Positions 12,730 to 64,000 of a stretch of 64,000 nt of DNA are shown piece after piece. Each line of letters begins with the position of its first letter. The first letter of the stretch is position 1. The position numbers and the translations under genes are program-made. This stretch comes from Siphonodentalium dalli. Taxonomy: Eukaryota > Mollusca > Scaphopoda > Gadilida > Siphonodentaliidae. The stretch spans positions 203,344,690 through 203,408,689 of the forward strand of contig CP136069.1 in assembly GCA_032622095.1 (NCBI GenBank), written 5' to 3'. The notes beneath the pieces were generated by a model. It was not told the DNA's origin and did not search any database. It saw only the letters and a program-made list of their open reading frames with translations.

Positions 12730-12822
12730 GGGTGGCTATCGCTTTCCACGATATGACTCTCGGACATGACCTCTCTATTGATTAACATATCCTTGAGTTA
12801 TTGTGGAAAGCGATAGCCACCC
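12730..12822. repeat. Central hairpin of foldback copy 1; loop holds the satellite monomer
   Basis: Perfect 20-bp stem GGGTGGCTATCGCTTTCCAC (12730-12749) and its complement (12803-12822) around a 53-nt loop. Positions 12762-12794, read on the minus strand, are a 33-bp sequence that aligns without gaps to the satellite monomer at 59985-64000, differing at a few positions. The same stem half occurs at 36083-36101 and 59957-59976. Confidence 0.9.
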
Positions 12823-14262
12823 AGGGTACACATGTACAACCCACTCCATGTGTACATAAACACCACACAAATGACAACATAATCACACACTTTATACACG
12901 TACACCTGATCATACAGCCATACTTGGTCATACCCGTACATTCCACAAATGAAGATACAGCCACGAGTCACCATGCATGAACACCAGGTATACACCTACA
13001 CCCGACACATGACCATATAGTCACTCTATGTATACATATTCACTACATTCACGATCATACAGTCACTCATTGTATAAATATTCACCTCACCATGGACCAT
13101 ACAGCCACTACATTTATACCTATTCGCCATACCCATGACCATAGAGTAAATCCAGGTATACATATGCACATCACCAATGGTGAGCCCTTCCAGATATACC
13201 AATACCCACACATACGACCACTCATAAGTTCTATACTTGCCATACTCATACACGCCATCCATGATCATACATCTACTCTCCATACACCACAAATGATAAC
13301 ACATCCACAACATATATAAATATACGTCCCACAGTTACCAACAAGGCACTCCCTATATACCCACACATCATTCATGACCATACAATAACTCCCTGTATAC
13401 ATATTATCCTCATCTATGATCATAGAGTAACTCCCTGGCTGCCATCTTGGCTTCCACCCTGTAGCCAGTTGATAAATTGTTATCACAATGGGCCAGAATA
13501 CCCACATATCATGATTCATCTCAGTTCCGTCTCAAAGTGCTGCCCATTTCCTTTCAATAATATGGCCAGAATCACAAAAGAGGTTACCCGCAAAATTCCA
13601 TACTGCAACCATACGGAACTGAGACAAACATAATAGAACGTAGTTGTCAGTTAATTAACTAACACGTACAATAACCAAGTGAGTCACAATTGGCTACCGT
13701 TTTCGGATAACGCAGAGAAAAATGTTCGGGATATGTTAACTTTTTACTTTTTACAAATTTGGTTGCCATTTTGGAAGCCATCTTGAGCAATTTAGTCTAT
13801 AAATACCGTAGTGTGACACATTTAAGATAGACCAAAACAATAAACACCTTTGATACCAAAGATAGTTGCATTTTACTTGAACAAATGGTCGAACCCTGAA
13901 AAGTGAATTTTTGCCGATATTTATGTCAAGTTTGTGAGAGAAAAATCCAATATTTCTGGTGATGTCAGTGGTGACAATAGTAAAAATTATCCATGGTGCA
14001 TCAGATATGTTAGTATGCAGTGTATAGAATACAGATTAGCCAAATGTATATATCAACCACAACTTGTAAGCGATTGCAGGACACCCTGGGGCAATATTTA
14101 CCATTTTCCATATTTTGGCGGCCATTTTCGCAGCCATTTTGAGCCAATGTAAGATTTTTTATTCCAGAGAGTTGGAATATTCACAGGTAATGATATGCCT
14201 CACTTACATTACAATGTTCTTTTCATTTCTTGTTGAAATATGACTAGAATCCCAATTGCCAG
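12823..14262 (-). mobile_element. Foldback element copy 1, right arm
   Basis: Inverted counterpart of 7594-10108. It starts with inverted minisatellite (to about 13435), then TGAGACGGAACT/CCATTTTGGAAGCCATCTTGAGC, and ends near AGAATCCCAATTG (compare 7594-7606). The outer 560 bp of the left arm have no counterpart here, so the right end is truncated at about 14262. Confidence 0.75.
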
Positions 14263-14432
14263 TGAAAGGATTTGCGTGCCCACCCGAAGGGCGGCACGAG
14301 GACGGTGATGGGCTCATCCGAAGATCGCCCTTACGCCCTGTCTTGAATATTCTTTTGTCTTGTATCTTCATCAGTCAGACCGCGGATCGGGTGGAGAAGT
14401 CTTGAGGCCGGGATTGGTCAGCGTCGTAGGTG

Positions 14433-14540
14433 TCTTGAATCTTGTCTTGAATCTTGACTTGGTCTTTGCCTTGTACTTTTGCCTTGATATATGCCTTGAT
14501 CTTTGCCTTGGTCTTTGCCTTTGCCTTGACCTTGTCTCGG
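14433..14540. repeat. Short minisatellite GCCTTGATCTTT
   Basis: Imperfect 12-bp (6-bp sub-periodic) units GCCTTGATCTTT/GCCTTGGTCTTT. The minus strand reads as a Lys/Ala/Gln-rich frame (KAKAKTKAK), which is a repeat artefact. Confidence 0.8.
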
Positions 14541-14599
14541 CATCTTGGAAAATGCGGGACGATCCAGCGATGATGCTGGAGTTTCTGTTGGTTGTCCAC

Positions 14600-14818
14600 G
14601 CCCGGGACTTTCCAATGGAGGCACTGGACTGCGGGCCGCTAAGAGAGTACGGGGCGGTCCAGTGATTCCACTGGACTGCGTGTTCTCTTCTGTTATCGCC
14701 CGGGACGGTCCAACACTCCTTATTGAACTGCGGGATACGGGATGGTCTAGCATAGTCTGCTGGACTGCGTATCCTGAACCCGGGACGGTCCAATAAGCCT
14801 ACTGGACTGCGGGTCTTT
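14600..14818. repeat. Imperfect ~45-bp repeats with GGTCCA...TGGACTGCGGG
   Basis: ACTGGACTGCG or a close variant recurs at about 14622, 14669, 14724, 14759 and 14802, paired with upstream CGGGACGGTCCA, so each unit can form a short hairpin. GC-rich compared with its surroundings. It abuts the end of the LINE reading frame and may be its 3' UTR. Confidence 0.6.
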
Positions 14819-16125
14819 TCAACCACAGAGAAGTTGTTTGCGTTGTAAACACTCCCTCATGATGTCACTACCGTCCATTCTCGCCAGTGTACTTTCCGCC
14901 AGTTCGCGTAGGCGCTCTCTGATGGGTTCCACTTTAGCGATGGTATGCAGACCTACAATACGGGTGTGATACGGTGCTTGCAGTGCCATTATCAGGCCTT
15001 TGTTTTGGACCAACTGAAGCATTTGGATCGCGTGATTTGATGCCAAGTTGGTAACCACCGATGCGTATATTCCATGATTGGTCTTACAAACGTTTTGAAG
15101 ACTCTAAGCAGCGTGGCCATGCTAGCGCCAAAGGAAGTTCCCCTCAGCCGTCTGAGAAGATTAACTCGTTGCATGGCCCTCGTGGCTGTCTGCTTAACAT
15201 GGGTTTGCATGGTGAGTTTGGTGTCCAAGGTGACGCCTAGGAAGGTCACCTCTTTTGCGGCAACCAAGTCAATGCCATTGACATTGAGTTTGACCACCGA
15301 CTTGCTTCGTCGTTTCGAAAATAGGGCGAATTGTGTTTTGTTCGCATTGAGCTTAATGCGCCATTTCGATCACCACCTGTCCAGGTCACCGAGGGCCCGC
15401 CTCAGTCTGAGCTCCACATACTTTTTACTGCATTGGTGATCCACAGACCCAAGTCATCAGCGAACTGCGACAGTAACTGTTGCACTTGGTGCCTCGGGTC
15501 TATTTCAATGTCATTGACATAGACAATGTAGAGCAGTGGGCTTAAAACTTACCCTTGTGGTGTACCAGCGTTCAGTGGAACAGAGTCCGACGATTCTCTG
15601 TCCACCCTCACCTTTATTGAGCGGTCGGTGAGGAAAGATGAGAGGAGCCTTACAAGTTTGACCGGGAAGCCATACTTGTGTAACTTGTACCGGAGGCCGT
15701 TGTGCCAGACGCTGTCGAACGCTTTTTCAACGTCAAGTAGCACTGTACCAGTTACCCAGTTTTTGTGGAAGCCACTGCGTATGTCCTCCACAAGGCGGTA
15801 GAGGTGTTCTACCCCTTCGCATCCGTTTCGATATGCCCTCTGCCATTTGTTGAAGAATGACTTCTCCTCCAGATGGTTTCGGAGTCGTGATGCAATGATT
15901 GCTTCGAATAGCTTGCCGATGCAGCTAAGAGGACTGATTGGTCTGTAGTTGCCAGGGTATTTAAGATATTTGCCATTTTTGAGTATTACAATGCCGATTG
16001 CCTCTTTCCAGGCAACTGGAAAGTAGCCAATCTTCAGGCAGGTATTGTACAGATTGGTGATATAAGAAAAGAGTTCAGCTGGGGCTTCTTTGAGTACCCT
16101 GTATGGAATTCCAAATGAAGCCATG
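14819..16125 (-). pseudogene. Jockey-like LINE reverse transcriptase, 5'-truncated and broken
   Basis: The minus strand encodes the fingers-palm of a non-LTR reverse transcriptase: NYRPISPLSCIGKLFE, then LLDVEKAFDSVWHNGLRYKL (catalytic D), then NAGTPQG. A TAA stop (about 15552) follows exactly where families read S in QGSVLSP, and the frame continues VLSPLLYIVYVNDI and QFADDLGLW (the FADD active-site box, about 15440-15475) before another stop. Two further frames (15297-14992 and 15058-14819) hold the thumb and C-terminal region, with FLGVTLD and IMRECLQRKQLL. The endonuclease and the start of the RT are missing. Motif spelling (DVEKAFD.VWH.GL.YKL) fits the Jockey group. Nonsense and frameshift changes show it is dead. 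Confidence 0.85.
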
Positions 16126-17948
16126 CGGAATTAGGTCCCCATAGTGTGAATTTGGTGATGCTAGCCCGCTGTGCTGGATAGCGCCACTAAATTCACCCTC
16201 TGGGAACCTCATTCTGCAAATGACAGGGGGGGGCCGAATTTTTTTGGAAAAAAATGTTAAAAGTAAAAACTCCTTACCTACCATATTTTTTTCAGGGGCA
16301 TGTTCCCTCAAACACTAGCTATATTATTTTTTAGGCCTCACCTATTTGCCTGTTGTTACTTGTGACCTGGAAAAGTGTTGAAAAGACTATGAAGCTGGTA
16401 TACTGTGATAGTCTTGACACCTTATGTTGATTATTAGTTCTCTTGATTGCATAACCGGATGTAAACCCGTTCCCACCAAACAATCCTAACCCCATTTGAA
16501 CCCTAGAGCTATCTGAAGTATTTTTGTATTGATCTACACCGTGAACTAGACAATTTTCAATATAAAAACTGCCAAGCAAGCTGAAACAGACACAATAAAA
16601 AAAAATTCCGCGCAAAAAAAATCAATGAAAATTTTGGGACATTAGTTCAATATACAGCTTTTTCATCGAAATTATTTTTATTTTGTTCGACCAACCCCCC
16701 ATTTCCCCATACCGAAGAATGTCAATTGCAACAGTTTCGTGATGTGGCTAAGACATATGCGCTTGCGTTTTGGAATTAAGCAATCAACAGACAATCTGAT
16801 AATTCGAGCGTGGGTACAAGTCGCACATACTATGTAATTGTCTGTGGTTCAATGCGCGAATGTTGCTTCGTTGATTTATTGGTAAGACAACCCAAGCGCA
16901 GTGTTTTAGCCATTAAGAGCCATCAAAAGAACAAAAGAGACAAGAAAACCATAGTCAGAAATGGTAACGCCACCAAGATTATGGTATTACATATAAATAG
17001 AAATTATAAAAAATACATAAAATATTTTGATAACAATTGCGTTTAAACAAGTAATCCTTCAAATTATTACTAACAAAGTAAACGACTGTGGGGTCACTCA
17101 ACAGATTATAAAGACTTGGACATAGTATACTGTAAATACTAAAATTTAAATGAAATAATTAAAAGATAAAATTTAGCAAGTAGTAAAAGTTAATTTTCTC
17201 ATTTTTGTTTTGGTTAAATAAAGCAATAATTTAAATGTAACATTTGGTTTAAAAAAAAATGATTGACCGTGGCTCTTCCAATAATTGCGCGACTGACCTG
17301 GTCAATTGTTCTTAAGAAGTTGTTTTGAGAATTAATATGGAGGGAAATAGTTGTGGCTGTGGCTTCGCAAGTAATTACCTTGGTGACGTGATGTTAACAA
17401 ATCTGAACTCCAGTTAACCAAGGACGCTTCATACCAAATATAAGGTGAATTATTAATTCTTTAGAAGTTGTTTTAAGATTTACTATGGAGGGAAAGAATT
17501 GTGGTGCTGGCTTCGCAACTATTTGACCTCATTGTAATAAATATTAGTCACTCAGGCAATAGATGTATCTATTCTGTATATTAACTTATTGGGTCTTACG
17601 TGTCTTGAGATGTCTAAATAGTTTTCGATGGACAGATCGCGCAAGGGACCCACGCCAATCTTCTCTGTTGGGATTCCAATTGTTGGCTCATTAAATAGGC
17701 ACATATGCTTAAGATACAGTCGCACGCTCCCGTAAGTCGGGTTTTGATTCCAGTTAATGAAAATATCATTGAAATAATCGGTTTCCCCCAATAAACATCC
17801 ATATATTGAATATACATGTTTTGGAGCAGAATTAGGCAGTCCATATTGGACGCCATCATGGAATTTATTTTGTTTTGTTTTAATTTTCACACATAATTAT
17901 TAGTTATATGGATGGAGTTCTCATTAAACCTCACATCCTTGTATTGGT
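16126..17948. other. No gene recognised; one diverged ~145-bp duplication
   Basis: 17313-17420 and 17459-17545 are diverged direct copies (AGAAGTTGTTTT...TATGGAGGGAAA...GTGGCTTCGCAA). A 112-aa open frame on the minus strand at 17890-17552 has no recognisable motif. The rest is AT-rich and featureless. Confidence 0.5.
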
Positions 17949-17950
17949 TA

Positions 17951-18079
17951 CAGTAATACCCAAAGTAATTGACCACTTAAACACATCAGAATTATTGGTA
18001 ATTTTTCAGGATTTGAAATCCTGAAAATTTACCAATAATTTTGCTGTGGTCAAGTGGTCAATTACTTTGGACATTACTG
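17951..18079. mobile_element. Palindromic Tc1/mariner-type MITE, unit 1
   Basis: Near-perfect palindrome flanked by TA on both sides. The ends CAGTAATACCCAAAGTAATT and their complement meet at a short loop around 18012. CAGT ends and TA target duplication are typical of Tc1/mariner. Essentially all of the element is inverted repeat, with no interior. Confidence 0.8.
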
Positions 18080-18125
18080 TATGAGGATTGAGTTATCATT
18101 AAACCTCAAATCCTTATATTGGTTA

Positions 18126-18250
18126 CAGTAATGCCCAAAGTAATTGACCACTTAACCACAGCAGAATTATGTATTTTTTCAGCATTTACAATCCTCAAAT
18201 TACCCATTATTCTGCTGTGGTTAAGTGGTCAATTGCTTTGAACATTACTG
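18126..18250. mobile_element. Palindromic MITE, unit 2
   Basis: Second copy, 175 bp downstream of the first, with the same TA flanks. The 46 bp between copies (GATTGAGTTATCATTAAACC...) are also repeated, so the array expanded by tandem duplication and not by three independent insertions. Confidence 0.8.
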
Positions 18251-18296
18251 TATGATGATTGAGTTATCATTAAACCTCAAATCCTTATATTGGTTA

Positions 18297-18425
18297 CAGT
18301 AATGCCCAAAGTAATTGACCCTTTAACCACAGCATAATTATATGTAATTTTTCAGGATTTAGAATCATGAAAAAATACACACAATTTTGCTGTGGTTAAG
18401 TGATGAATTACTTTGGACATTACTG
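18297..18425. mobile_element. Palindromic MITE, unit 3
   Basis: Third copy, 171 bp downstream of the second. Its two arms have diverged more than those of unit 1 (for example ATTCATGAAAAAATACACAC on the right). Confidence 0.8.
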
Positions 18426-18427
18426 TA

Positions 18428-19961
18428 TGTAGATGGAGTTAAACCTCACATCAGTGTGTTGGGGATTTGGACCTTGACTTTGGACCTTTGGTTTTTAACG
18501 CAACAAATGCGCGTACACCTTATACACAAATTTTTTATGTAACCAGAGTTTTTCTTGGATAAGATGAGTTTGAAGCCTGCTTACATTTAAAAATGTTGTC
18601 AGTTTTGTATTGTCTGCAGCGGATCTCGACGCGTTGAAGCAAAAATTACAAAAGATAAAATGTGTATGTGACGAGACTATAATACAAATGAAAAAATAAA
18701 TTGAGGGAGGGGTGGGCGATACAGGGAACTAAGGGTTGAACCGATATAAATTTGTAGAGCAATAACGACCAATGTTGACATATTAATGATATTATGCATA
18801 TCAACTCTACTGTTGCAACAAGGCTATAAAATAGGGGGGTGTCAGAATCTTAGTCATCTCTATATAGTGCCAGAATAGTCATTTATGAGGTTCTATAAGA
18901 TGTTGGGTTGGTTATATGGACTCGGAGAAAAAAGGGGTTTGTACCGATGAAGTTGATGAACTGACATAAATTAGTGGATCGATGTTGCCATGTAATGCAT
19001 CGTGATCGACTGTACTAAAGCAGCAATTATATAAAATTGGGGGGGGGGGATGAAATTATCTCTATAGTTGGCACCAGGATTATATAGAAAGGAATAGCAA
19101 TTGATATACATATACGGCATACTATAGTAATACCATAGACATATAAGTACAAGTATCACGAGATAAAATATTACGTAACATGACTATATACCGATGAAAG
19201 AAATAAATAAATTGGACCGGGATTAGAGGTTGGGTTGGTTATATGTGGATAATTGGATATGGAATTCATACCGATGAAACGATACAAATTAGTGGAGCGA
19301 TAAAGACACTTAGTCAGGCTACGCGGGGGAAATAGGGGTTGATACGATAGACCGAAATAAATTTGTCGAGTGATAATGACCAATGTTGACGTATAAAGTA
19401 ACGCGACTGTACTGTCACACAATTATCAGGTAGAACCGGTCAAATATGACAGGGTACAGCACGTAATTATTTCCTAGATCGAAGAAATGATTTTTTTTTT
19501 CGATGATAAAATTTAACATGGGATAATTTGCCATTAAAATCGATTTATGTCTATAAAACTGTCATTTTTCAAAATTTTGAGCTGAAACTTGGTGTGTATG
19601 TGTATAATACTACTATATTCTTAAAATGACAGAGTTCAGCGCGTAATTATGTTTTAGATGGAAGAAATTGAATTTGTTTTCGATAACAAATTTACAGCGT
19701 GTACGGCCTACGGGTCATTGAGTATGCTCAATTTTTGTAAACAAACTTTTGTCAATAGCCGTTTTGGTCAAACTAAACCTTCTTCGACCGGGACAGCAGA
19801 TCCGAATAGTAGCTAAGATGTATTTAGATAGAATTATCAAAAGAATATGACCGATCAGGGTACATTTTAACAGAATAGAGTGGAGAAATCTTGGTGATAA
19901 TTCCAGAAAATAAAGATGTAGGAGAATCACAATTAAACTTCCCACAATGCACTTCACTAAA
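18428..19961. other. Non-coding; diverged repeats
   Basis: Degenerate copies of an ACCGATAAATTTGT.GAG.GATAA.GACCAATGTTGAC-type unit at about 18740, 18945, 19270 and 19345. A second pair is CAG.(G/A)CGTAATTAT.T..TAGAT.GAAGAAAT at 19456 and 19637. No gene seen. Confidence 0.5.
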
Positions 19962-22540: not shown

Positions 22541-22551
22541 ATTATGAATGA

Positions 22552-24655: not shown

Positions 24656-24656
24656 C

Positions 24657-24973: not shown

Positions 24974-25825
24974 TCTATTATATATTTTGAAAGATCTGTG
25001 TGTTTGTGTGTGTGTGTGTTTGAAATCGATGGACTCGAAAACGACTAAGCCAATTTCGATGAAATTTGGTATTTTAGGGTATTTTCGGCCGGAGACGAAC
25101 ATAGGCATATTTATTTGTCCGTGCGACGTCAACTTTTCACGTGCGGAGGTCAAATCTATTTTTACGCCGTTTTTGCGCTAATATATTTCAGTTCGGTGCT
25201 CACAAATCGATTCGATATAGCGCGAATAATAAATTGCCAGTCATATAATTTGCACGGTTAGAATCTGTGTGGCTTCATCTTTCCAACGATATATAATATG
25301 TATGTATCCGTTTTAGTTATCTGCCTCAATTATTAGGTACAAGTGGTACGATGCTTTTATCAGGATAAAATCAATGCGTAATTTCTATGACGTCGTCAGA
25401 GGTCATAAAGTTAGATTACGTTAACTCTCACCCTGCCGATGCATTTGACTGTGTCGCGTTAACTCATCACCGGCCGAGGTATCCGCAAATGACATTGGGC
25501 TATATATCTCGGAAACGGGTGTAGCTATCGACTTGAAATTTGGTATGTGAATGTATCTTGCCCCGGATACGAATTTTATCGGGTCGCCGAGCACGTGCGA
25601 CGCCAGCTTCGCGCATGCGCAGACGAGATCTCGGAAACGGGTTGAGATATTGACTTTAAATTTGGTATGTGAATGTATCTTGCCCCGGATACGAATTTTA
25701 TCGGGTCGCCGAGCACGTGCGACACCAGCTTCGCGCATGCGCAGACCAGATCTAGGAAACGGGTGGAGCAATCGACTTGAATTTTTTTTTTTTAATAGCC
25801 CGGACGAAGTCGGGTCACCTTCTAG
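24974..25825 (+). mobile_element. Helitron-like element A1 (852 bp, long form)
   Basis: Starts TCTATTATATATTTTGAAAG after an A, and ends with a CCGGACGAAGTCGGG hairpin, TCACCTT, CTAG. No Rep/helicase frame. The long form has two copies of a ~116-bp unit (CGGAAACGGGT...GGTATGTGAATGTATCTTG...GCGCATGCGCAGAC). Also contains GT repeats near the 5' end and a conserved TGACGTCGTCA. Confidence 0.9.
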
Positions 25826-25847
25826 TACTATATATTTTGAGACTTCG

Positions 25848-25885
<38 letters not shown>

Positions 25886-27251
25886 CTTCATAGAATCCAA
25901 AACGCGTGTAAAGATTGAGCTCAAACTTCCTATGTAAGTGTCAAATCACACCGACACGAACGTGGTCGCGGTTCAGAGAAGCTCAGAGCACCCGTTCTCC
26001 AATCTCAAATCACCGCATAGACACGGCGGGGGTTAATCAAGTGATTATTTAATGAGCGTTTGTTTTTGACGCATCTCTATAAAGAGCGTCTTTTTCCCAT
26101 TCAACGTTATTCGCATCTGCAGAGTTATACGGGAACGCAAACGTTATCGCTCGAAATTTATTCCCTGCGAGCACGGATGGCGCGCTCTGTTTTTACAGTA
26201 TATACCTTCGGTATATACCGAAGTCATCCCAGATAATCACGAATATAGCATCAGATTTCTCCCCAGATATACCGTTATAAAGCTACTGGAATCTGCCAAT
26301 CTACGGGAAATTCCAGGGAATGCCGATTGAGCTCAAACTTGCTACCTACGGGAAGTGTCATATATATGAGTGTGTCCTTTATAGACTCTAACCGATTGAG
26401 CTCAAACTTGCTAAATAAGAAAATAGCCCCCAAGCCGTAAATATCAACAACAACGATATTGCTACCTACGGGGAGCAACGTTATTAGCATCTGCAGAATT
26501 ATGCAGAGAAAGTGCTTTCCTATTTTTAGAACGCAACACATGTTTACGTCGCGTTGGTGATTGAGGTTCACAACGGGGTTAATTGACTGTCCGCTCTTTG
26601 CGACGATGAGGTTCACGGCGGGGACTATTGTTATAAAGCTACTGGAATCTGCCAATCTACGGGAAATTCCAGGGAATGCCGATTGAGCTCAAACTTGCTA
26701 CCTACGGGAAGTGTCATATATATGAGTGTGTCCTTTATAGACTCTAACCGATTGAGCTCAAACTTGCTAAATAAGAAATTAGCCCCAAGCCGTAAATATC
26801 AACAACAACGATATTACTAAATACACGTTTTCGGCAAATGTGAGAGTTTTCCGGGAGCCGTGATGCCAACAACAACGACCCGAAGACAGATTTCCCGACG
26901 GGAAGCGTTCGTTTTAAATTCAATGCAAAGTTATCGTAGAGAGATTTCACGAAACAGAGAATGCGTTGTCTGTCGTTCCTAGGAAGGGGGGATTTCTACG
27001 GGTAAATTTTTCCGCCAGAAACAAAAAAATTAATTAAAACAATTTACAATTTAATTAAAACAATATAAAATTTTAAAAAATTAACAATAAAAAAACAATT
27101 CAGAAACAAAATATATTAAATTTAAAAAACATTAAATTCATATTCAAAAATAAAAAACAAAAATAAATAAAAACAAAATAATTACAAAAATGTCATGTTT
27201 CTGAAACAAAGCCATGGGACGAATGCCGCCAGTGGCGGGCTAACCTGCTAG
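25826..27251 (+). mobile_element. Helitron-like element B1 (1426 bp)
   Basis: Different family from A. Starts TACTATATATTTTGAGACTT then (GT)n, and ends ATGCCGCCAGTGGCGGGC (hairpin), TAACCTG, CTAG. Contains a ~185-bp direct repeat (26269-26455 and 26632-26815), a TATATACCTTCGGTATATACC palindrome (26201-26220) and an A-rich tract at 27005-27195. A 126-aa minus-strand frame inside runs through the direct repeat and looks fortuitous. Confidence 0.85.
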
Positions 27252-28965: not shown

Positions 28966-29817
28966 TCTATTATATATTTTGAAAGATCTGTGTGTTTGTG
29001 TGTGTGTGTGTTTGAAATCGATGGACTCGAAAACGACTAAGCCAATTTCGATGAAATTTGGTATTTTAGGGTATTTTCGGCCGGAGACGAACATAGGCAT
29101 ATTTATTTGTCCGTGCGACGTCAACTTTTCACGTGCGGAGGTCAAATCTATTTTTACGCCGTTTTTGCGCTAATATATTTCAGTTCGGTGCTCACAAATC
29201 GATTCGATATAGCGCGAATAATAAATTGCCAGTCATATAATTTGCACGGTTAGAATCTGTGTGGCTTCATCTTTCCAACGATATATAATATGTATGTATC
29301 CGTTTTAGTTATCTGCCTCAATTATTAGGTACAAGTGGTACGATGCTTTTATCAGGATAAAATCAATGCGTAATTTCTATGACGTCGTCAGAGGTCATAA
29401 AGTTAGATTACGTTAACTCTCACCCTGCCGATGCATTTGACTGTGTCGCGTTAACTCATCACCGGCCGAGGTATCCGCAAATGACATTGGGCTATATATC
29501 TCGGAAACGGGTGTAGCTATCGACTTGAAATTTGGTATGTGAATGTATCTTGCCCCGGATACGAATTTTATCGGGTCGCCGAGCACGTGCGACGCCAGCT
29601 TCGCGCATGCGCAGACGAGATCTCGGAAACGGGTTGAGATATTGACTTTAAATTTGGTATGTGAATGTATCTTGCCCCGGATACGAATTTTATCGGGTCG
29701 CCGAGCACGTGCGACACCAGCTTCGCGCATGCGCAGACCAGATCTAGGAAACGGGTGGAGCAATCGACTTGAATTTTTTTTTTTGAATAGCCCGGACGAA
29801 GTCGGGTCACCTTCTAG
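28966..29817 (+). mobile_element. Helitron-like element A4 (852 bp, long form)
   Basis: Same length and internal duplication as A1, nearly identical base by base. Confidence 0.9.
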
Positions 29818-30791: not shown

Positions 30792-31984
30792 TCTATTATA
30801 TATTTTGAAAGATCTGTGTGTTTGTGTGTGTGTGTGTTTGAAATCGATGGACTCGAAAACGACTAAGCCAATTTCGATGAAATTTGGTATTTTAGGGTAT
30901 TTTCGGCCGGAGACGAACATAGGCATATTTATTTGTCCGTGCGACGTCAACTTTTCACGTGCGGAGGTCAAATCTATTTTTACGCCGTTTTTGCGCTAAT
31001 ATATTTCAGTTCGGTGCTCACAAATCGATTCGATATAGCGCGAATAATAAATTGCCAGTCATATAATTTGCACGGTTAGAATCTGTGTGGCTTCATCTTT
31101 CCAACGATATATAATATGTATGTATCCGTTTTAGTTATCTGCCTCAATTATTAGGTACAAGTGGTACGATGCTTTTATCAGGATAAAATCAATGCGTAAT
31201 TTCTATGACGTCGTCAGAGGTCATAAAGTTAGATTACGTTAACTCTCACCCTGCCGATGCATTTGACTGTGTCGCGTTAACTCATCACCGGCCGAGGTAT
31301 CCGCAAATGACATTGGGCTATATATCTCGGAAACGGGTGTAGCTATCGACTTGAAATTTGGTATGTGAATGTATCTTGCCCCGGATACGAATTTTATCGG
31401 GTCGCCGAGCACGTGCGACGCCAGCTTCGCGCATGCGCAGACGAGATCTCGGAAACGGGTTGAGATATTGACTTTAAATTTGGTATGTGAATGTATCTTG
31501 CCCCGGATACGAATTTTATCGGGTCGCCGAGCACGTGCGACACCAGCTTCGCGCATGCGCAGACCAGATCTAGGAAACGGATGGAGCAATGCAAATTGTA
31601 AAAAATGTTAACAATGCACCATGAGGTACATGTATCACATTTAAAACAGCTACTTGAAATCATTATTGAAATTATTTAGAATTGGTGGGGTGGTGAGACT
31701 ATACAAACTATTTTTCAAATAATATAAAATGATATACTGTATGTATACACTTGTAAATATGTTATACCTATTGTGTTGACAACCCCAATTATTATGTATC
31801 AGTGTTATAACGCCAATTGGGAGAGGGGGTTATGTATAAGTGGATCGCACTTGTCCTCCAATCCCAATGCCAATCTGTATTGTTATATACTTATTGGTAA
31901 TAAATATGTTTAAACTAACGGGTGGAGCAATCGACTTGAAATTTGGTTTTTTAATAGCCCGGACGAAGTCGGGTCACCTTCTAG
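30792..31984 (+). mobile_element. Helitron-like element A6, interrupted
   Basis: A long-form element of 1193 bp. Removing the 329-bp insertion and one 12-bp target copy gives 852 bp, exactly the length of A1 and A4. Confidence 0.9.
31591..31919 (+). mobile_element. Retroposed insertion in A6 with 12-bp target duplication
   Basis: Flanked by GGATGGAGCAAT (31579-31590) and GGGTGGAGCAAT (31920-31931). Ends GGTAATAAATATGTTTAAAC, so it looks like a 5'-truncated LINE 3' UTR. No coding sequence. Absent from A1 and A4, so it is the youngest insertion here. Confidence 0.75.
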
Positions 31985-34977: not shown

Positions 34978-36075
34978 TTATTGGCTAATTTCGAAAATAA
35001 TACCGAGAGTGATTCTATGGACATGGGTAGGATGTATATGTATATCTTTGGTGGTTATATATGACCATCGTTGTTGAGAATATGTATACGGGGTGACTGT
35101 ATGGGTAATGTTGAGATGAATGGGTATACATTGCGTGACTGTATGATCATGAATGTGGTGAATATGTATACAGGGAGTGACTATGTGGTCATGGGTCAGA
35201 CGTAAGAGTGTACCCGGTGTGCATACATGGTGACTCATTACCGGATGGTGTGTACACAATTGTATGGTCTTATGTGAGGTGTTTGTCTATAAAGCAGGTG
35301 GCCATATGACCATTGGTGAGGTGTATTTGTATGCATGTCATGGGTGGGTGTATATGTATATCTCGAGTGGCTATATGGCAATGGGTGTGGTGAATAGGTA
35401 TACAGGGAGTGACCATATGGTCAATAGTGAGGTGAATATGTGTACAAGGAGTGACTTTATTACCCTGAATGTGGAGCATAGGTCTACAGGAAGTGACCAT
35501 ATGGTCATGGGCCATGTGTAGGGGTATACCTGGTGTACCTGCATGGTGACTCATGCCTGTATGGTCATTTGTGGGGTGTAATTGTATACCCAAGTGTGGC
35601 TGTATGGTCATTGGTGAGGTGTATGTGTATAAAGCATTTAGTTGTATGGCCATTGGTGAGGTGTATATGAATACCTGGAACGATTCAATGGTCATGGGTG
35701 GGTGTATATGTATATCTTGAGTGGTTATGACCATGGCTGTTTCGAATATTTATACACGGAGGCCAATAGTGATGTGAATATATGTATACAAGGAGGGACT
35801 ATATTATAGTCCATCACTGTATGATCATGCATGTGGTGAATAGATATACAGGGAGTGACTATATGGTCATGGATCAGGTGTATGAGTATACCCGGTGTGC
35901 ATGTATGATGACTCCCGGCTGTATGATCATGGGTGGGGCGTACGGATACATCAAATGGTGGCTGCATGGTCATGGGTGAGGTGTTTGTGTATAAAGTGAT
36001 TGGTTTTATGGTCTGGTATATTTGTCTGGTCTATATACAGTGTGACTCTATGACCATGGGTGTGCCACAAAGGTG
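34978..36075 (+). repeat. Foldback-type ~42-bp minisatellite, copy 3
   Basis: Same unit family as 8410-10108. The CCCGGTGTGC landmark recurs at about 35213, 35528 and 35890, which indicates a higher-order period of roughly 315-360 bp. Confidence 0.85.
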
Positions 36076-37310
36076 GGCTTATGGTGGCTATCGCTTTCCA
36101 CAATAACTCAAGTATATGTTAATTAATAGAGATGTTTAGTTGTCAGTTGATTAAGTAACATTTTAATAACCAACTGAGTTACAATTTGCTACATTGTCAG
36201 AGCAGCATATAATAATGTACGGGATATAATTATATGGATTTTACCAAATCCGATTGCCATTTTGCAAGCCATCTTGAGTACGTTTGTCTAAAAACACCCC
36301 ATTGTGACACATTTAAGACAGTTCAAAACGATAACACCTTTAATACCAAAGATAGTTCCATTTTACTTGAAAAAAATTGTCAAAACCTGAAAAGTTAATT
36401 TGTGCCGATATCACGTTTGTGAGAGGGAAATCCAACATTAATATGTCTGGTAATGTCAGTGGTTATAGTAGCAACTATTAACCAATGTGCATCAGCAATG
36501 TTAGTATTCAATGTATAGAAGGATTATAGTCGATTTTATTCATGAACGACAACTTGTAAGTGATTGCAATATATGCTGGGGAAATATAGCTACCATTTTC
36601 CATAATACGTCATAGGTCATAAGTCATATTTAGTCAAAGTGACAATTTTGGTTCCATTGAATTGGAATATTCATAGGTAAAGGTATGCCTCACTTATGCA
36701 CAGTTCTGCTCATTTCTTTTTGTGATATGACTAGAATCCCAATGGTGATTATTTGCGAAATTTTATAGCACGTTCTGTAAAATAAAAATGTTTCGAGATT
36801 GGAAGGGCCTGCTACTCACATAATCGCATATTTCATTGCCCCAATGATCAGTTAACATAAAAAATATATAATAAATGCGGATTGCAGCGTGCGGCGGTGG
36901 ATTCAAATTTGAAATCCAATGACCTGTTAACATGAAAAATATAAATAAAGTTGTAATTCTCAACCAGTTCCAAACAGCAGAAACTAATCTAGAAAATATT
37001 AGTGAAAAATAGTCAATTTTTTCACTTCCGGCGACCATATTGGAATGGGGAGTTCAGATTTTAACCCTAAAATGCTAGCATTGTGTCCTAGCTTCACAAT
37101 AATATAATACATTTATATACATTTGTCAAGATTTTCTCTCTATAATTTGCATCAACCTAACTTATAGTGCCTCGTCTTAAAACACGGCGACCATGTTGGA
37201 CGCCATCTTGTTTCGTATATACGCGGACACTTTCTTTCCGTGTTAACATTGCTTAAAATTTCAGGGACATAATAATGAATAAAATGAGTGAGGTGAAGTT
37301 AAGACCTATG
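36076..37310 (-). mobile_element. Foldback element copy 3, centre and right arm
   Basis: Contains one half of the central stem (GGTGGCTATCGCTTTCCAC, 36083-36101) and a loop-like AAGTATATGTTAATTAATAG (36110-36129), then a right arm matching 13640-14262 and the outer left arm of copy 1 in inverse orientation, ending near AGTGAGGTGAAGTTAAG (37288-37304). The second stem half and the inverted minisatellite are missing, so the centre is deleted relative to copy 1. Confidence 0.75.
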
Positions 37311-38487
37311 GTGTGCGGTGTAGAAGTACCCTATCAGCTTCCTGACTGTCAACGACAACGTCATATATGTTCTTGCTACCGGTGGATAGAGTATTCCAAT
37401 ACCCACAAAATTACACATCGCCTGTTAAATGCAACCACAATGGCATCCCTCGTATATGGGATACCATTGCCCCCACCACATCATAATGGTAACACATTAG
37501 GGTACATGCACCAGGGGTCATACCAGCTCACGGACTAATGCAACAAATTGGGGTAGGTTAATCATAAAGATAAACAATATGACCTAAAGTTATAAAGACA
37601 GCATTTTTTTTACAATGACCTTGACCTTTCACAATGACCTTGACCCTTGAGATGAGTACTGGCGGTCCGTTATGGAGAATAGATTTATATAAATATTATT
37701 ATATAACTATATCCAATCCTATCACCAATATACTTAATATATGATCATTTTCCAGAATTCTCAGAAATCACACACTGTTGCTATGGTAACACCAATTTTA
37801 GGAAACTAATTGATAAGAAGCTTGTTAACGTTGGTTTCTAATGTCTCCAGTATATGGGCTTTATGAAAATATATGTTGCTGAAAATTCACATAACATTTT
37901 ACGAAACCCATTTTTTAAATTACACATGACAGGCTATTACCATGGCAAAGATGGGCAGCTCAGATACAAAATTGTCATAATCAGGCCCTGATTATGACCA
38001 TTCAAATAGTTCAAACTGGAAAACGAAATACATCTATAAGGCAGTTCTTACAACAAATTGAAGGCAAGAAACTCCCGATTCTACATAAATTACATGGTTT
38101 GGGGTTATTTGCGAAATAAATGCATTTATGGGCAAGTGAATGTAGAATTACTTGTTGTAAATTAACTTATTAATAAATTACCTTGACCTTAGTGAATGAC
38201 CTTGACACACATGTATCTCCCCATTTGTATTATGAAGTGGCCAATCACTTGTGTTCTCAACTTAGATACTAATATCAAACATAGTACCAATTAGTTTCAC
38301 AGAAAGAGGTATTTCCCGTTTCCTCCCATTTCCAGATGCCGTTGCCATGGACACCAAATTCATTTCTCACCAGTATCTGGTAATCCGGGCATCCCCCGCC
38401 AAAAAGATTACCGTTTGTTCAAAGAACATATGTACAAAATTTCATGCTTTAATCCGGCCAGTCACGATTTTTTGGTTAATTGACTGG
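37311..38487. other. No gene seen
   Basis: AT-rich with two AATGACCTTGACC words at 37614 and 37636 and another near 38198. No other feature was supported. Confidence 0.4.
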
Positions 38488-52191: not shown

Positions 52192-52215
52192 AACATAAGA
52201 TTCCACTGACCTCCC

Positions 52216-52388: not shown

Positions 52389-52399
52389 GGTTGAATAAT

Positions 52400-52940: not shown

Positions 52941-52944
52941 TCAA

Positions 52945-55174: not shown

Positions 55175-55480
55175 ATTCTAAATTGGATGTGACATGTACT
55201 ACCATCTTATATGTTGGAAGGATCAGACCACGGTCGTTCCACCATACCGATGGCATGATACACGTCACATGGTAGGTGTATCATATACATCATACCTTAT
55301 TAGGATGCATGATATGATACACCATACGTTGTAATAACTACTGGCGTCGAGAGATACGAAGAACCACTCTCTCTCCATCAGCCGATCCGACTAGACCTCT
55401 TTTATCGATGCTCCTGCTGTGTTTATCACTATGACCTATACACATATAAAGTTATCAAAAGCTACGGACAGTTATTGTTA

Positions 55481-55965
55481 TCAATGTTCCGACACGGCCA
55501 ATTCAAAATCTAAACAATTGGTTTGAATGCTACTGTCACTGGATGTGATCGGTTGGTTACTAGAAACTTGCGTGAAGCTAGACGTTTGAAATTGAAGTTG
55601 ATCATCAGGACATCCGTACACATAACCATTATCATCTCCAATGAGAACAACTGCTTTGCTGGGACGCACAGTAATGTCATTAGTCATCATGAATGACAAA
55701 CCAGCAGAAATGTCCAGATCAAGGCTATCAACAACTGCAGCTTCTAGAAAAAGTTCATTACCTTTTCGATTCACCACAACTTCTGTGAAACCAATGTCAT
55801 ATAGACCGGCCCCCAGATGATGGTAGTGTCACACGAAAGGGTAGAAATTTTGACGCTATCTCCAATTATCCTTGCCCCATGGGGGTTCCAAAACACTGAG
55901 GTATCCAGGGCGGAGCAGGTGGAAAATACATTTTTTTTTTCCTTTTCAGTGTTTTCGACCTGCAA
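55481..55965 (-). pseudogene. Unidentified coding region, split between two frames
   Basis: Minus strand. The 5' part (55965-55771) reads VFWNPHGARIIGDSVKIST then TTIIWGPVYMTL and stops. From about 55825 a second frame takes over with LGAGLYDIGFTEVVVNRKGN and continues SLDLDISAGLSFMMTNDI, PSKAVVLIGDDNGYVYGCPD to a stop at 55481. Both parts have protein-like composition and overlap at the switch. That suggests a one-base change in one coding exon, or two exons joined by splicing (an acceptor-like TTGGTTTCACAG| lies at about 55778). Family unknown. Same strand as the 247-aa frame, 307 bp upstream of it. Confidence 0.4.
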
Positions 55966-57319
55966 ATTTCAGTATGATCAGGACAACCAATAAAATAAGA
56001 CAAATGTCGAATAAAATATACTTCAATATCAGATATTTATTCTATCTGGGCTGCTTAACATTAATTATGTGCAAAATTATATTATCCAACAATTTTTGTG
56101 AAAAATTCACGAAAATGCCCCAAAAAAATGCATAAATTGCAGTGCTTTTTCAAAAATGTTTTCCAGAAGATTTCCTATAAAATTTTCATTTTTTGGTATA
56201 AAGCTCTCAGTGCATTTTCAGCATTATATACCTGATTTACTAATATCAACATCACAAGCACTGATATCAAACAAACCGAGATATTTCCAAAAACTTAACC
56301 CTGCCCCTAAAACGGATTTTCTATCTGAAAATACCTGCCAAGTCAAAATAGCCCGTTTTCGTTCCGTTTTGTTAACCAATTCAGAGTCTTATCATATATC
56401 ATGGAATTAGCATGTATCTGAGAAGGTTTATGTAATGGGAGGGTCTATTTTGTTTAAATATTAGTTTTTTTGGGGTTTAAATTAGCTAAAATGTTGATTA
56501 TTTTTAAGTGAAAAATTTATGAAAAATTCCCATGACTCATTTTTATGGATACAGCTGCACGACATGCACCCACAATAAGCAAAAAATCATCCACAATACC
56601 AGACATGAAATGCTATAATCATGTATAAGACCATAATTAAGAAATAAAGTAAAACTTAACCCTACCGTGACCCCAAGATAGTTTTCTTAATGCTTTCAAT
56701 TTTATGCTATATGCTACTGAAAGGTCATGCAGACTAGTTGATATAATGCATACCATATATTGCAATAGTACTGCCCATGGATTATCAAATCTTATCTTCA
56801 CTGTCACTGTCAATTTCATCAAATGTGATGGTATCAGTCAATAGAACTTCTGTGCAACATCTTCAGGGAAGAATGGTTCAAACAACTCAGGTTGCCTTAT
56901 CGGCCGTCCATCCATGAAGTGCTACATCGGGAGTGGTTGATTTTGGCAACGGTTGCAAGTCTCCACTGTTTTGCTATCATGTTGGCTTGTCTTGAGTGTA
57001 TAATTAAAGATTCGTCACATGGTGGAAATGCAGAAAGATCAAGTACCTTCTGCTGATTCTCGAACTTCTGCTGGAACATTACCCACCTAGCTTAATTCAC
57101 TTTTTTCGAACGTTTACCATACATGTATAAGGCACATGTTAACACCTCGATTGTATTAACCGTGTCACTGTCCAAAGTCCAATTCATTCCTAAATAAGCC
57201 ACGACTTCCATATATTTTTATTGTCTTTCCGGCAACTTCCAGAAGAGTTTTTGTCCTTTTCGGAAAAACGTTGAAAGGTAATTATTACCTGTCAGAGAAC
57301 GGAACCCAATAACTGCATT
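55966..57319. other. No gene recognised
   Basis: AT-rich. Frames of 60-87 codons are present on both strands but none carries a motif. Confidence 0.4.
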
Positions 57320-57782
57320 CTTCTGTATATTTGGTAGATATTGCCCAGCAAGCCCCGCAATAGCTTACAAGTTGTGGCTGATGTATAAAATTTGCTATGC
57401 ATTGAATACTAACATGTCATGTCTGATGCACCTTGGTTAATTGTTTTTGACATAAATATCGGCAAAAACATTTTCACCCACTAGGGGCATATGCCATACA
57501 TAATTCAACATGGAACATACAAGCAAGATCAATGCGTATTAAATTATATATGAAATTGGTAGACATATAATACATAATACAAGTAAGTTTATACACTAAG
57601 TTTTATATACTAACATGTCTGATGCACCTTGGTTAATTTTTACTATTGCCACCACTGCATTAATATTGGAATTATTGGATTTTTCTCTCAAAAACATGAC
57701 ATAAATATCGGCAAAAACATTTTCAAGTAAAATATAACGATCTTTGGTATGAAAGGTGTTTATTGTTTTTGATCTACCTTAA

Positions 57783-57875
57783 CCCTTTATAGAGCCCCAC
57801 ATAGACTGGAGCAGACGACACTCTGTAGTGCATGCTTCCATCTGTGTGAGGCTCCCTGTGGGATAAATCTCTTAA
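57783..57875. mobile_element. Short TTAA-bounded insertion
   Basis: Sequence between the TTAA at 57779 and the one at 57876. Starts CCCTTTATAGAGCCCCACA and ends TGTGGGATAAATCTC, partially inverted. Probably a decayed piggyBac-like MITE adjoining the intact one. Confidence 0.45.
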
Positions 57876-57879
57876 TTAA

Positions 57880-58271
57880 CCCTTTACCCAACAAAACGGC
57901 CAAAACCGGCCAAATAAAGCTTCAACAGCCTAAAATATCTTCGGTCTGTCTCAATAGAACCATACAAATATGGATATCATTGGAACCGGCTCTTTGACCA
58001 CATTGTGATAGTTACAGTTATGCCCTGTGCCAATGCATTCTCTTATATATGCGAGTCGAGCATAGGTCGCCTCGCATATATAAGAGAATGCATTGGCCTA
58101 ACAAAAATCTTTTTTTAACACTTTTTACCATTTTTTCTTACATTCTTTAACAATTTTATAATTTCTAATGTGTTAAGCCAATGCATTCTCTTATATATGC
58201 GAGGCGACCTATGGTCGACTCGCATATATAAGAGAATGCATTGGCACAGGGCCGTTTTGTTGGGTAAAGGG
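57880..58271. mobile_element. Palindromic TTAA MITE, copy 2 (intact)
   Basis: Perfect 22-bp terminal inverted repeats beginning CCCTTTACCCAACAAAACGG, flanked by TTAA (57876-57879, 58272-58275). The interior holds the same double hairpin as 47425-47694. Copy 1 of the foldback arm has the uninterrupted site (TTAA at 8027-8030 followed by GTGTGTCACAC), which independently confirms TTAA as the target. Confidence 0.9.
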
Positions 58272-58659
58272 TTAAACGTGTCACACTAATGTGTTTATAA
58301 ACCAAATTACTCAAAATGGCTTCCAAAATGGGAACCATTTTTTACATATATCCCAAAAAATATTCTCCGCTGTTCCGAGAATGTAGTAAATTGTGACTCA
58401 CTTGGTTATTATACATGTTAGTTAATAACTAAATAAATCAATAATCAACTAAATGTTCTATTCTGGTTGTCCCATTTCCTTATGGGGCATAACAAATTAA
58501 TTTTAAAGTTGCCTTACGGAATTTTGCAGAGAAGCTCTTTTGTGATACTGGCTATATTTGTTTTAATAAATGGGCAGAACTTTGAAACAAAACTGAACTG
58601 AATCATAATATGTTACTATTCTGGCCTATTAGGATAATATTGATCAACTTGATACATGG

Positions 58660-59950
58660 TGGATGTCAAGATGGCAACCAGTGAGTTATGTAAATAACGA
58701 GAGTAGCTACCAGGTCATATGTGTGTTTATGTATATATGGAGTGACTTATGGCCATGGGTTGGATGTACAGGTGTACCTTGTGTGGCTGTATTGTCACAG
58801 GTGAGTGTATATACATACATGTGGTGTCTGTATGGTCATGGGCGGGGTGAAATGATAAATAGATGTGCATCTATGTGTAATGCATATTGGTATACACGGG
58901 ATGACAGTACAGTCATACAGTCATGCTGTGTACATGTGTACATGGAGTATGCTGGATGGTCATTGGTGAGCGTGTGGATGGTCATGTGTGGATGTATATG
59001 TATATATCGAGTGGCTATATGACTACTGGTGTGGCAAATAGGTGGTATACAGTGACTGTATTGCTAATGGTGAGGTGAACAGGTATACAAGGAGTGACTA
59101 TGGTCATGAATGTGGTGAATAGGTATACAGGGTGTGACAACATGGTCATGGGTCAGGTGTAGGAGTATACATGTTGTGCCTGCATGGCTGTATAGTCATG
59201 CGTAGGGTGTACATGTATACACAAGTGTGGCTGTATGGTTGTGGAGAGGTATGTGAATAAAGTGAGTGGCTATATCGCCATTAGTTTTGTGTATATGTTT
59301 ACCTGGAGTGATTCTATTGTCATGGTCGGGGAGTATATGTATATCTTGCGTGGCTATTTTGCCATGGGTTTGGTGAACATGTATACAGGGAGTGACGTAT
59401 GACCAATGGTGAGGTGAATAAGTATACAAGGATTGACTGTGTGATCATGAATGTATTGAATAGGTACACATGGGATGATTATATGGTCATGGGTCAGGTG
59501 TTTGAGTATACATAATGTGCCTGCATGGTGACTCATGGCTGTATGGGGATGTGTGGGGGGTACAGGTATACACAACGTAGAGTGTGGCTATATATGGTCA
59601 TGCATGAGGGTACATGTATAAAGCGAGTGGCTATATGGCCATTGGTGAGATGCATACATGGAGTGACTTTATGGTCATGGATGGAGTGTATATGTATATC
59701 TTGAATGGCTATTTGGCCATCGATGTGGCGAATAGGTATACGGGGAGTGACAGTATGGCCAATGGTGATATGAATAAGTATACAATAATTGGCACATGGT
59801 CATGGAAGTGGTGATTAGGTATACATGGAGTGACTATAAGGTCATGTGTCAGGTGTATGTGTCTGTAGCGAGTGACTATCTTGGCATGTGTGTGGTGTTT
59901 ATGTGTATATATGGAGTGACTTTATGTTATTGTGTTAGTTGTACATGTTG
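58660..59950 (+). repeat. Foldback-type ~42-bp minisatellite, copy 4
   Basis: Same unit family as 8410 and 34978. The TGTGCCTGCATGG landmark recurs at about 59174 and 59517, a higher-order period near 345 bp. It ends at the central stem. Confidence 0.85.
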
Positions 59951-59984
59951 CACCTTGGGTGGCTATCGCTTTCCACAATAACTC

Positions 59985-62900
59985 AACGACATATTAATCG
60001 ATAGAGAGGTCATATCCAACGACATATTAATCGATAGAAAGGTCATATCCAACGACATATTAATCGATAGAGAGGTCATATCCAACGACATATTAATCGA
60101 TAGAGAGGTCATATCCAACGACATATTAATCGATAGAGAGGTCATATCCAACGACATATTAATCGATAGAGAGGTCATATCCAACGACATATTAATCGAT
60201 AGAGAGGTCATATCCAACGACATATTAATCGATAGAGAGGTCATATCCAACGACATATTAATCGATAGAGAGGTCATATCCAACGACATATTAATCGATA
60301 GAGAGGTCATATCCAACGACATATTAATCGATAGAGAGGTCATATCCAACGACATATTAATCGATAGAGAGGTCATATCCAACGACATATTAATCGATAG
60401 AGAGGTCATATCCAACGACATATTAATCGATAGAGAGGGCATATCCAACGACATATTAATCGATAGAGAGGTCATATCCAACGACATATTAATCGATAGA
60501 GAGGTCATATCCAACGACATATTAATCGATAGAGAGGTCATATCCAACGACATATTAATCGATAGAGAGGTCATATCCAACGACATATTAATCGATAGAG
60601 AGGTCATATCCAACGACATATTAATCGATAGAGAGGTCATATCCAACGACATATTAATCGATAGAGAGGTCATATCCAACGACATATTAATCGATAGAGA
60701 GGTCATATCCAACGACATATTAATCGATAGAGAGGTCATATCCAACGACATATTAATCGATAGAGAGGTCATATCCAACGACATATTAATCGATAGAGAG
60801 GTCATATCCAACGACATATTAATCGATAGAGAGGGCATATCCAACGACATATTAATCGATAGAGAGGTCATATCCAACGACATATTAATCGATAGAGAGG
60901 TCATATCCAACGACATATTAATCGATAGAGAGGTCATATCCAACGACATATTAATCGATAGAGAGGTCATATCCAACGACATATTAATCGATAGAGAGGT
61001 CATATCCAACGACATATTAATCGATAGAGAGGTCATATCCAACGACATATTAATCGATAGAGAGGTCATATCCAACGACATATTAATCGATAGAGAGGTC
61101 ATATCCAACGACATATTAATCGATAGAGAGGTCATATCCAACGACATATTAATCGATAGAGAGGTCATATCCAACGACATATTAATCGATAGAGAGGTCA
61201 TATCCAACGACATATTAATCGATAGAGAGGTCATATCCAACGACATATTAATCGATAGAGAGGTCATATCCAACGACATATTAATCGATAGAGAGGTCAT
61301 ATCCAACGACATATTAATCGATAGAGAGGGCATATCCAACGACATATTAATCGATAGAGAGGTCATATCCAACGACATATTAATCGATAGAGAGGTCATA
61401 TCCAACGACATATTAATCGATAGAGAGGTCATATCCAACGACATATTAATCGATAGAGAGGTCATATCCAACGACATATTAATCGATAGAGAGGTCATAT
61501 CCAACGACATATTAATCGATAGAGAGGTCATATCCAACGACATATTAATCGATAGAGAGGTCATATCCAACGACATATTAATCGATAGAGAGGTCATATC
61601 CAACGACATATTAATCGATAGAGAGGTCATATCCAACGACATATTAATCGATAGAGAGGTCATATCCAACGACATATTAATCGATAGAGAGGTCATATCC
61701 AACGACATATTAATCGATAGAGAGGTCATATCCAACGACATATTAATCGATAGAGAGGTCATATCCAACGACATATTAATCGATAGAGAGGTCATATCCA
61801 ACGACATATTAATCGATAGAGAGGTCATATCCAACGACATATTAATCGATAGAGAGGTCATATCCAACGACATATTAATCGATAGAGAGGTCATATCCAA
61901 CGACATATTAATCGATAGAGAGGTCATATCCAACGACATATTAATCGATAGAGAGGTCATATCCAACGACATATTAATCGATAGAGAGGTCATATCCAAC
62001 GACATATTAATCGATAGAGAGGTCATATCCAACGACATATTAATCGATAGAGAGGTCATATCCAACGACATATTAATCGATAGAGAGGTCATATCCAACG
62101 ACATATTAATCGATAGAGAGGTCATATCCAACGACATATTAATCGATAGAGAGGTCATATCCAACGACATATTAATCGATAGAGAGGTCATATCCAACGA
62201 CATATTAATCGATAGAGAGGTCATATCCAACGACATATTAATCGATAGAGAGGTCATATCCAACGACATATTAATCGATAGAGAGGTCATATCCAACGAC
62301 ATATTAATCGATAGAGAGGTCATATCCAACGACATATTAATCGATAGAGAGGTCATATCCAACGACATATTAATCGATAGAGAGGTCATATCCAACGACA
62401 TATTAATCGATAGAGAGGTCATATCCAACGACATATTAATCGATAGAGAGGTCATATCCAACGACATATTAATCGATAGAGAGGTCATATCCAACGACAT
62501 ATTAATCGATAGAGAGGTCATATCCAACGACATATTAATCGATAGAGAGGTCATATCCAACGACATATTAATCGATAGAGAGGTCATATCCAACGACATA
62601 TTAATCGATAGAGAGGTCATATCCAACGACATATTAATCGATAGAGAGGTCATATCCAACGACATATTAATCGATAGAGAGGTCATATCCAACGACATAT
62701 TAATCGATAGAGAGGTCATATCCAACGACATATTAATCGATAGAGAGGTCATATCCAACGACATATTAATCGATAGAGAGGTCATATCCAACGACATATT
62801 AATCGATAGAGAGGTCATATCCAACGACATATTAATCGATAGAGAGGTCATATCCAACGACATATTAATCGATAGAGAGGTCATATCCAACGACATATTA

Positions 62901-64000
62901 ATCGATAGAGAGGTCATATCCAACGACATATTAATCGATAGAGAGGTCATATCCAACGACATATTAATCGATAGAGAGGTCATATCCAACGACATATTAA
63001 TCGATAGAGAGGTCATATCCAACGACATATTAATCGATAGAGAGGTCATATCCAACGACATATTAATCGATAGAGAGGTCATATCCAACGACATATTAAT
63101 CGATAGAGAGGTCATATCCAACGACATATTAATCGATAGAGAGGTCATATCCAACGACATATTAATCGATAGAGAGGTCATATCCAACGACATATTAATC
63201 GATAGAGAGGTCATATCCAACGACATATTAATCGATAGAGAGGTCATATCCAACGACATATTAATCGATAGAGAGGTCATATCCAACGACATATTAATCG
63301 ATAGAGAGGTCATATCCAACGACATATTAATCGATAGAGAGGTCATATCCAACGACATATTAATCGATAGAGAGGTCATATCCAACGACATATTAATCGA
63401 TAGAGAGGTCATATCCAACGACATATTAATCGATAGAGAGGTCATATCCAACGACATATTAATCGATAGAGAGGTCATATCCAACGACATATTAATCGAT
63501 AGAGAGGTCATATCCAACGACATATTAATCGATAGAGAGGTCATATCCAACGACATATTAATCGATAGAGAGGTCATATCCAACAACATATTAATCGATA
63601 GAGAGGTCATATCCAACGACATATTAATCGATAGAGAGGTCATATCCAACGACATATTAATCGATAGAGAGGTCATATCCAACGACATATTAATCGATAG
63701 AGAGGTCATATCCAACGACATATTAATCGATAGAGAGGTCATATCCAACGACATATTAATCGATAGAGAGGTCATATCCAACGACATATTAATCGATAGA
63801 GAGGTCATATCCAACGACATATTAATCGATAGAGAGGTCATATCCAACGACATATTAATCGATAGAGAGGTCATATCCAACGACATATTAATCGATAGAG
63901 AGGTCATATCCAACGACATATTAATCGATAGAGAGGTCATATCCAACGACATATTAATCGATAGAGAGGTCATATCCAACAACATATTAATCGATAGAGA
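59985..64000. repeat. 33-bp satellite array, >121 copies, open at right edge
   Basis: The monomer starts AACGACATATTAATCGATAG and continues AGAGGTCATATCC, 33 bp in every copy with no indel over 4 kb. The only variants seen are T-to-G at 60439, 60835 and 61330, G-to-A in CAACAACAT at 63585 and 63981, and one early A (60038 region). The minus strand is open for the whole array as an 11-residue repeat (MSLDMTSLSIN), because 33 is divisible by 3. This is not evidence for a protein. The array runs beyond the window. Confidence 0.98.

Follow-up and report, generated by a model that had tools for sequence, protein, structure and literature searches.

How does a tandem array come to stand at the centre of a dispersed transposon? 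The question is raised by a 64,000-bp stretch of the genome of the scaphopod mollusc Siphonodentalium dalli (C9:203344690-203408689, referred to here as the window; the assembly comprises 2.2 Gb in nine contigs). Within the window, a 33-bp tandem array adjoins one half of the 20-bp stem that marks the centre of a foldback-like transposon. An earlier note on this stretch had described the array as a satellite seeded at the apex of the element's central hairpin. Very probably the array is a minisatellite of recent origin, confined to this locus, which grew in place out of a single copy of a 33-bp segment at the centre of a foldback-like DNA transposon; the hairpin need not have taken part.

The array and its borders

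In the window, Tandem Repeats Finder (TRF) reports an array on the forward strand at 59984-64000 with a period of 33 and 99% matches, and the next 5 kb of the contig carry it on to window coordinate 64306, 306 bp beyond the window. The coordinates first given for it were essentially right, except that it starts at 59984 and ends at 64306 rather than at 64000. From 59984 to 64306 the array consists of 131 units without a phase break, 124 of which are identical to the consensus; each of the other seven has a single change, so that 7 of 4323 bases differ (0.16%). These variants comprise two recurring changes and one singleton. The change at position 27 recurs in units 14, 26, and 41 and that at position 5 in units 110, 122, and 126, as block duplication or conversion would give. 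That misassembly accounts for the array's length or homogeneity is very unlikely: the unit count is uncheckable without reads, but the seven variant units, with their two recurring variants and one singleton, and the clean junctions at both ends speak for a real array.

On its left side, the array is preceded by the stem half GGGTGGCTATCGCTTTCCAC of the foldback copy numbered 4 (59957-59976, forward strand, exact match) and by a 7-nt spacer, AATAACT (59977-59983, forward strand), which is identical in 42 fetched single-unit loci. The stem had been described as running directly into ACTCA and then the monomer; the spacer stands between them instead. On the right side of the array, where the other stem half had been predicted, the sequence continues as CATCTTGATGTTGTTTT.

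Minisatellites are single-locus tandem arrays with units of tens of base pairs that are polymorphic in length between individuals, whereas satellite DNA occupies many loci or extends over very long arrays. The array has a 33-bp unit repeated 131 times at a single locus. Only this one 4.3-kb array was found in the assembled 2.2 Gb, where unassembled or diverged arrays would escape, and the label “satellite” is too strong for one such locus. The array is a single-locus minisatellite, not a dispersed satellite.

Uniqueness of the array

The stem is far more widespread than the array. Within the window it is exact at 12730-12749 (plus strand), 12803-12822 (minus strand), and 59957-59976 (plus strand), and has one mismatch at 36082-36101; these four matches at up to three mismatches compare with none in 100 shuffles. 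Genome-wide, exact stem matches number 1995, both strands summed. The array-start pattern, in contrast, occurs once in the genome, and a genome search for the ancestral-type junction at up to three mismatches found none. A tolerant junction pattern gives 124 genome matches and a spaced tandem pattern of period 22-52 gives 122, in each case the number counted inside the array (the first 100 matches being listed), while the spaced pattern of period 67-97 has no match in the genome. Loop-segment duplications with either range of periods were thus not found beyond the array. Monomers at up to three mismatches occur 362 times genome-wide, 131 of them in the array. These searches require exact or near-exact letters, so that strongly diverged or unassembled arrays would be missed; within that scope, no second array of the 33-bp unit was found. 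Arrays lying mostly away from the stem had been named in advance as evidence against an origin at the foldback centre, and the sole array found by pattern searches adjoins the stem.

Single-unit relatives and the parent sequence

The spacer followed by the first 28 bases of the unit is found exactly at 43 places in the genome and with up to three mismatches at 343 (the window counted in both). Each of the 42 exact places beyond the window, all of them fetched, has a single unit behind the same left neighbour; of the 300 inexact places a minority was fetched. These places are better parents for the array than the loop of foldback copy 1, from which it had been derived. The likeness of that loop is real: its minus strand aligns with the monomer without gaps over 33 nt, with 28 of 33 bases alike, whereas the best score among 300 shuffled copy-1 loops, over all rotations and both strands, is 21 of 33, so that the claim of a likeness above shuffled sequence holds.

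The right edge of the array (unit end plus CATCTTGATG) recurs, at up to two mismatches, at eight places, which are the window and seven others. A few relatives share nearly the same right neighbour as well, and in six of the seven a complete unit is present along with the stem (L023, L060, L066, L067, L068, and L070). The closest single-unit relative found is L023 (C1:141852446-141853480), which has the exact stem, AATAACT, and a unit with one difference, followed by CATCTTGATGGAGTTCTCCATCTTGATGTTGTGT, with CATCTTGATG directly after the unit. Copy 4 and L023 are 97.0% identical at 56787-57192 (406 columns) and 96.7% identical at 59897-60018 (122 columns). L069 contains an exact match to the right flank of copy 4, CATCTTGATGTTGTTTT. 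Copy 4 is without 18 bp that in L023 lie between two CATCTTGATG repeats.

Two further loci on C1, L064 and L065, have one exact unit each in a different sequence context. They lie in similar 1-kb stretches about 67.5 kb apart (C1:212132144 and C1:212199659) that differ at 24 of 1035 positions and are possibly a segmental duplication.

The array keeps the register of the single-copy sequence at both ends, and growth in place is therefore its most likely origin. Both this register and the failure of the pattern searches to find another array argue against an older tandem repeat that the transposon captured or that was inserted into it; a review reports capture as the proposal for miDNA4 (PMC12628747), but for this array it is highly improbable. 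Copy 4 and L023 had separated before the array was amplified or homogenised, because the units differ from their consensus by 0.16% whereas the two copies differ by about 3% in two stretches and by more in a third. The first duplication probably used little homology, since CA is all that the start of the unit has in common with the right flank. Growth in place would begin with a local replication or repair error that fuses the unit's end with its own beginning through this 2-bp homology, giving a dimer; the array could then be expanded and homogenised to 131 units by slippage and by unequal sister exchange of blocks of several units. The 20-bp stem hairpin would not need to participate.

Several observations weigh against such growth in place. 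No intermediate with a few units was found, and the in-between steps are unseen. The spaced-pattern searches for periods 22-52 and 67-97 tolerate no mismatch, so that diverged arrays escape them. At one position all seven other right-junction loci have C and the array has A; L069 retains no more than the right part of a unit and is without the stem; and in L066-L068 part of the region is present a second time farther along. At 55802-56658 copy 4 and L023 are only 92.3% identical (874 columns, with 34 mismatches and 33 gap columns), and an extra deletion must be assumed, in which copy 4 appears to have lost the 18 bp between the CATCTTGATG repeats. The unit of L023 lies inside the 358-nt loop of a wider imperfect inverted repeat, whose arms of 149 and 146 bp are 84.9% identical. 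Finally, the right half of copy 4 has no blastn match past 60018 within 15 kb beyond the window (E <=1e-10, at least 100 columns), and inverted sequence may have been lost from copy 4 later.

In the L068 locus, TRF gives the second partial copy a period of 86 bp. This partial tandem duplication (L068:574-730, and similarly in L067) covers the same central foldback segment.

The central hairpin

Slippage or rolling-circle copying at the apex of the hairpin formed by the element's inverted repeats is the mechanism that the earlier note proposed for seeding the array. The centre of copy 1 (12730-12822, minus strand) is essentially as it was described, with an exact 20-bp stem and a 53-nt loop holding one diverged unit (12762-12794), and its predicted DNA fold is strong (-28.9 kcal/mol, z -9.86). 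The first unit of the array is only 7 nt from the stem, and short-loop hairpins are common in the family. Among 20 of the first 100 listed stem matches (14 early ones with one listed stem, one having been skipped, and six chosen with both stems listed), 15 have an inverted stem half 45-94 nt away, which is not an unbiased rate because six of the 20 were picked as exact pairs. Loops in this sample measure 89-94 nt in 11 loci, 53 nt in one, and 45 nt in three; three loci have no inverted stem half within 320 nt, and two are unscored. TRF finds a 33-bp array in none of the 20, including the 15 hairpin loci.

The loci that share the right junction lend the hairpin less support. None of the six stem-bearing right-junction loci has an inverted stem half at up to five edits in the 700-727 bp fetched downstream, nor does L023 in 4.3 kb; matches at six edits in L066, L067, L068, and L070 (at 143, 632, 632, and 58 nt) are taken as chance and are uncontrolled. 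The wider inverted repeat of L023, the closest relative, does favour hairpin seeding, but the 1-kb stretches of the other five of these six loci have no inverted pair around the unit. Among the 42 exact unit-start loci, just two have an inverted pair around the unit and six have a stem-half match at five edits downstream. The 88-nt stretch of L023 from the stem to the second CATCTTGATG forms no hairpin like that of copy 1 (z -2.43, with 4 of 200 shuffles equally stable), and a dimer of the unit folds no better than its shuffles (z -0.07). Unit ends do not coincide with the stem, and the array does not end in a stem half.

Beyond the window, two stem-like matches at five edits (69961 and 74360) are likewise taken as chance and are uncontrolled. 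Weak inverted pairs of 33-58 columns span the array; they are taken as another dispersed repeat because the nearest ones also match elsewhere in the window.

An origin of the array at the foldback centre beside the stem is thus upheld by the single-unit relatives and by the adjacency of stem and array, whereas the hairpin-apex mechanism attached to it is poorly supported, since the inverted stem halves and the predicted far end are absent, and is unlikely. The wider inverted repeat of L023 and the missing right half of copy 4 slightly raise its standing and slightly lower that of growth in place, which is still very probable.

The foldback element family

Nine loci of the family were extended by further fetching, and both ends were found in three of them. 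These two-ended copies measure 5283, 4808, and 4875 bp; their outer inverted repeats of about 1.5 kb are 86.7, 88.4, and 94.6% identical, and their ends begin with TAGTC and are flanked by 3-bp target duplications (TAT, TAT, and TAC). Many foldback arms contain degenerate repeats of about 42 bp. Long terminal inverted repeats, partly with internal tandem repeats, characterise foldback-like DNA transposons, and the family has both. Long copies enclose a coding remnant, to which a 436-aa reading frame at L090:1854-3164 (minus strand) is related. Pfam returned no family for two fragments of the remnant or for the L090 frame, and a PDB search gave a single match at E 0.38, which provides no classification. 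Several matches of the L090-type remnant are inverted pairs about 3 kb apart. In the literature searched, no paper contained the stem, its complement, the terminus, or the unit strings, and no description of this foldback element was noticed, which is weak evidence as most subscription journals lie outside the coverage.

The foldback centre might be a recurrent birthplace of tandem repeats. A single process, acting where replication stalls at the centre of long inverted repeats, would then have produced in succession the copy-4 array, the 86-bp duplication of L067 and L068, and the old 42-bp arm repeats, and the arms themselves would grow from amplified central segments. This idea is unlikely: the 33-mer shows no likeness to the 42-bp repeats (local score 16 against a shuffle mean of 17.3, with 221 of 300 shuffles at least as high), which speaks against it.

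Foldback copies in the window

In comparison with the extended copies, the foldback copies 1 and 2, which had been counted separately, belong to a single element whose halves are separated by an insertion at 10107-12702. One half (7048-10106, minus strand), taken to be the former copy 2, starts with the terminus TAGTCCGGGAGC and matches L007e 6348-3324 by blastn at 90.7%. The other half, copy 1 (12703-14258, minus strand), matches L007e 3334-3018 and 2879-1600, with homology ending at 14258. The insertion itself is about 2.6 kb long, has (AC)n near one end (12609-12691), and is flanked by what is probably an 8-bp target duplication, ATATATAA, within AT-rich sequence.

Copy 3 (35000-37347, plus strand) consists of an inner arm, the stem with one mismatch (36082-36101), one unit-like stretch, and a fusion to the outer arm. 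It had been read as a decayed state of the loop. At 36135/36137, however, its homology to complete elements switches from loop to outer-arm sequence, which makes copy 3 a deletion fusion of the centre to an outer arm and not a decayed loop.

Copy 4 is represented by its left part only in blastn comparison with the extended copies (55798-59956, plus strand). Family homology covers about 55798-57782 and 58272-58692, and an inner arm with degenerate repeats of about 42 bp (TRF) follows to about 59950.

Neighbouring repeats

A 475-bp element (64321-64795, L001) starts 14 bp beyond the array and has perfect 24-bp inverted ends (TTTAAAGGCCCACTTAATTTTCGA / TTTAAAGGCCC...), whose end sequence has 11,232 genome matches within one mismatch. 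It is an independent mobile element, and the sequence beyond it does not match the fetched foldback copies. Elsewhere in the window, TRF finds a 122-bp unit, nearly unchanged, in three tandem arrays (25506-25785, 29498-29777, and 31324-31586); together with matching short repeats at 27025 and 33183, they suggest that a block is repeated or duplicated here. Two clean tandem arrays, of 38-bp and 50-bp units, lie at 273-460 and 586-882 (TRF).

Comparison with known systems

Transposons are already known as a general source of tandem repeats, and the birth of arrays inside transposons is documented for Tetris, miDNA4, and Xstir. In Drosophila virilis, the TIR-220 satellite formed from the foldback element Tetris (PMC4079207). 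Like the element described here, Tetris is foldback-like and has long terminal inverted repeats (TIRs) with tandem repeats; an internal piece was amplified to homogeneous arrays (up to 66 copies in Tetris), and unequal exchange was proposed (PMC4079207). The Tetris repeat of about 220 bp, however, was already tandem in the TIR (PMC4079207), whereas the S. dalli array was amplified, at one locus, from a 33-bp central segment present in single copy. Target duplications also differ, being 8-10 bp in Tetris (PMC4079207) and 3 bp in the three two-ended copies found here.

Arrays derived from miniature inverted-repeat transposable elements (MITEs) have been reviewed, and include miDNA4 of Xenopus tropicalis, Xstir of Xenopus, for which a stem-loop mechanism was proposed, and bivalve and insect cases (PMC9659126, PMC12628747). 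As in this family, miDNA4 and Xstir arrays are related to the internal sequence of an inverted-repeat transposon, and single-monomer and array states coexist within one family (PMC9659126, PMC12628747). In contrast to miDNA4, for which arrays of variable copy number are reported and capture of an older repeat is proposed (PMC9659126, PMC12628747), one array was found here against 342 other unit-start places, with no sign of capture. Human minisatellites derived from Alu or long terminal repeat (LTR) sequences are likewise born locally inside a dispersed repeat (PMC9659126); they belong to another element class, and here single-unit relatives with both flanks are identified.

The value of the S. 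dalli locus lies in its clean before-and-after comparison, as one assembly holds close single-unit relatives, both junctions, and a young array. One amplified locus stands against 342 other unit-start places (at up to three mismatches) and 1995 exact stems, so that the conditions for array birth become comparable within one transposon family.

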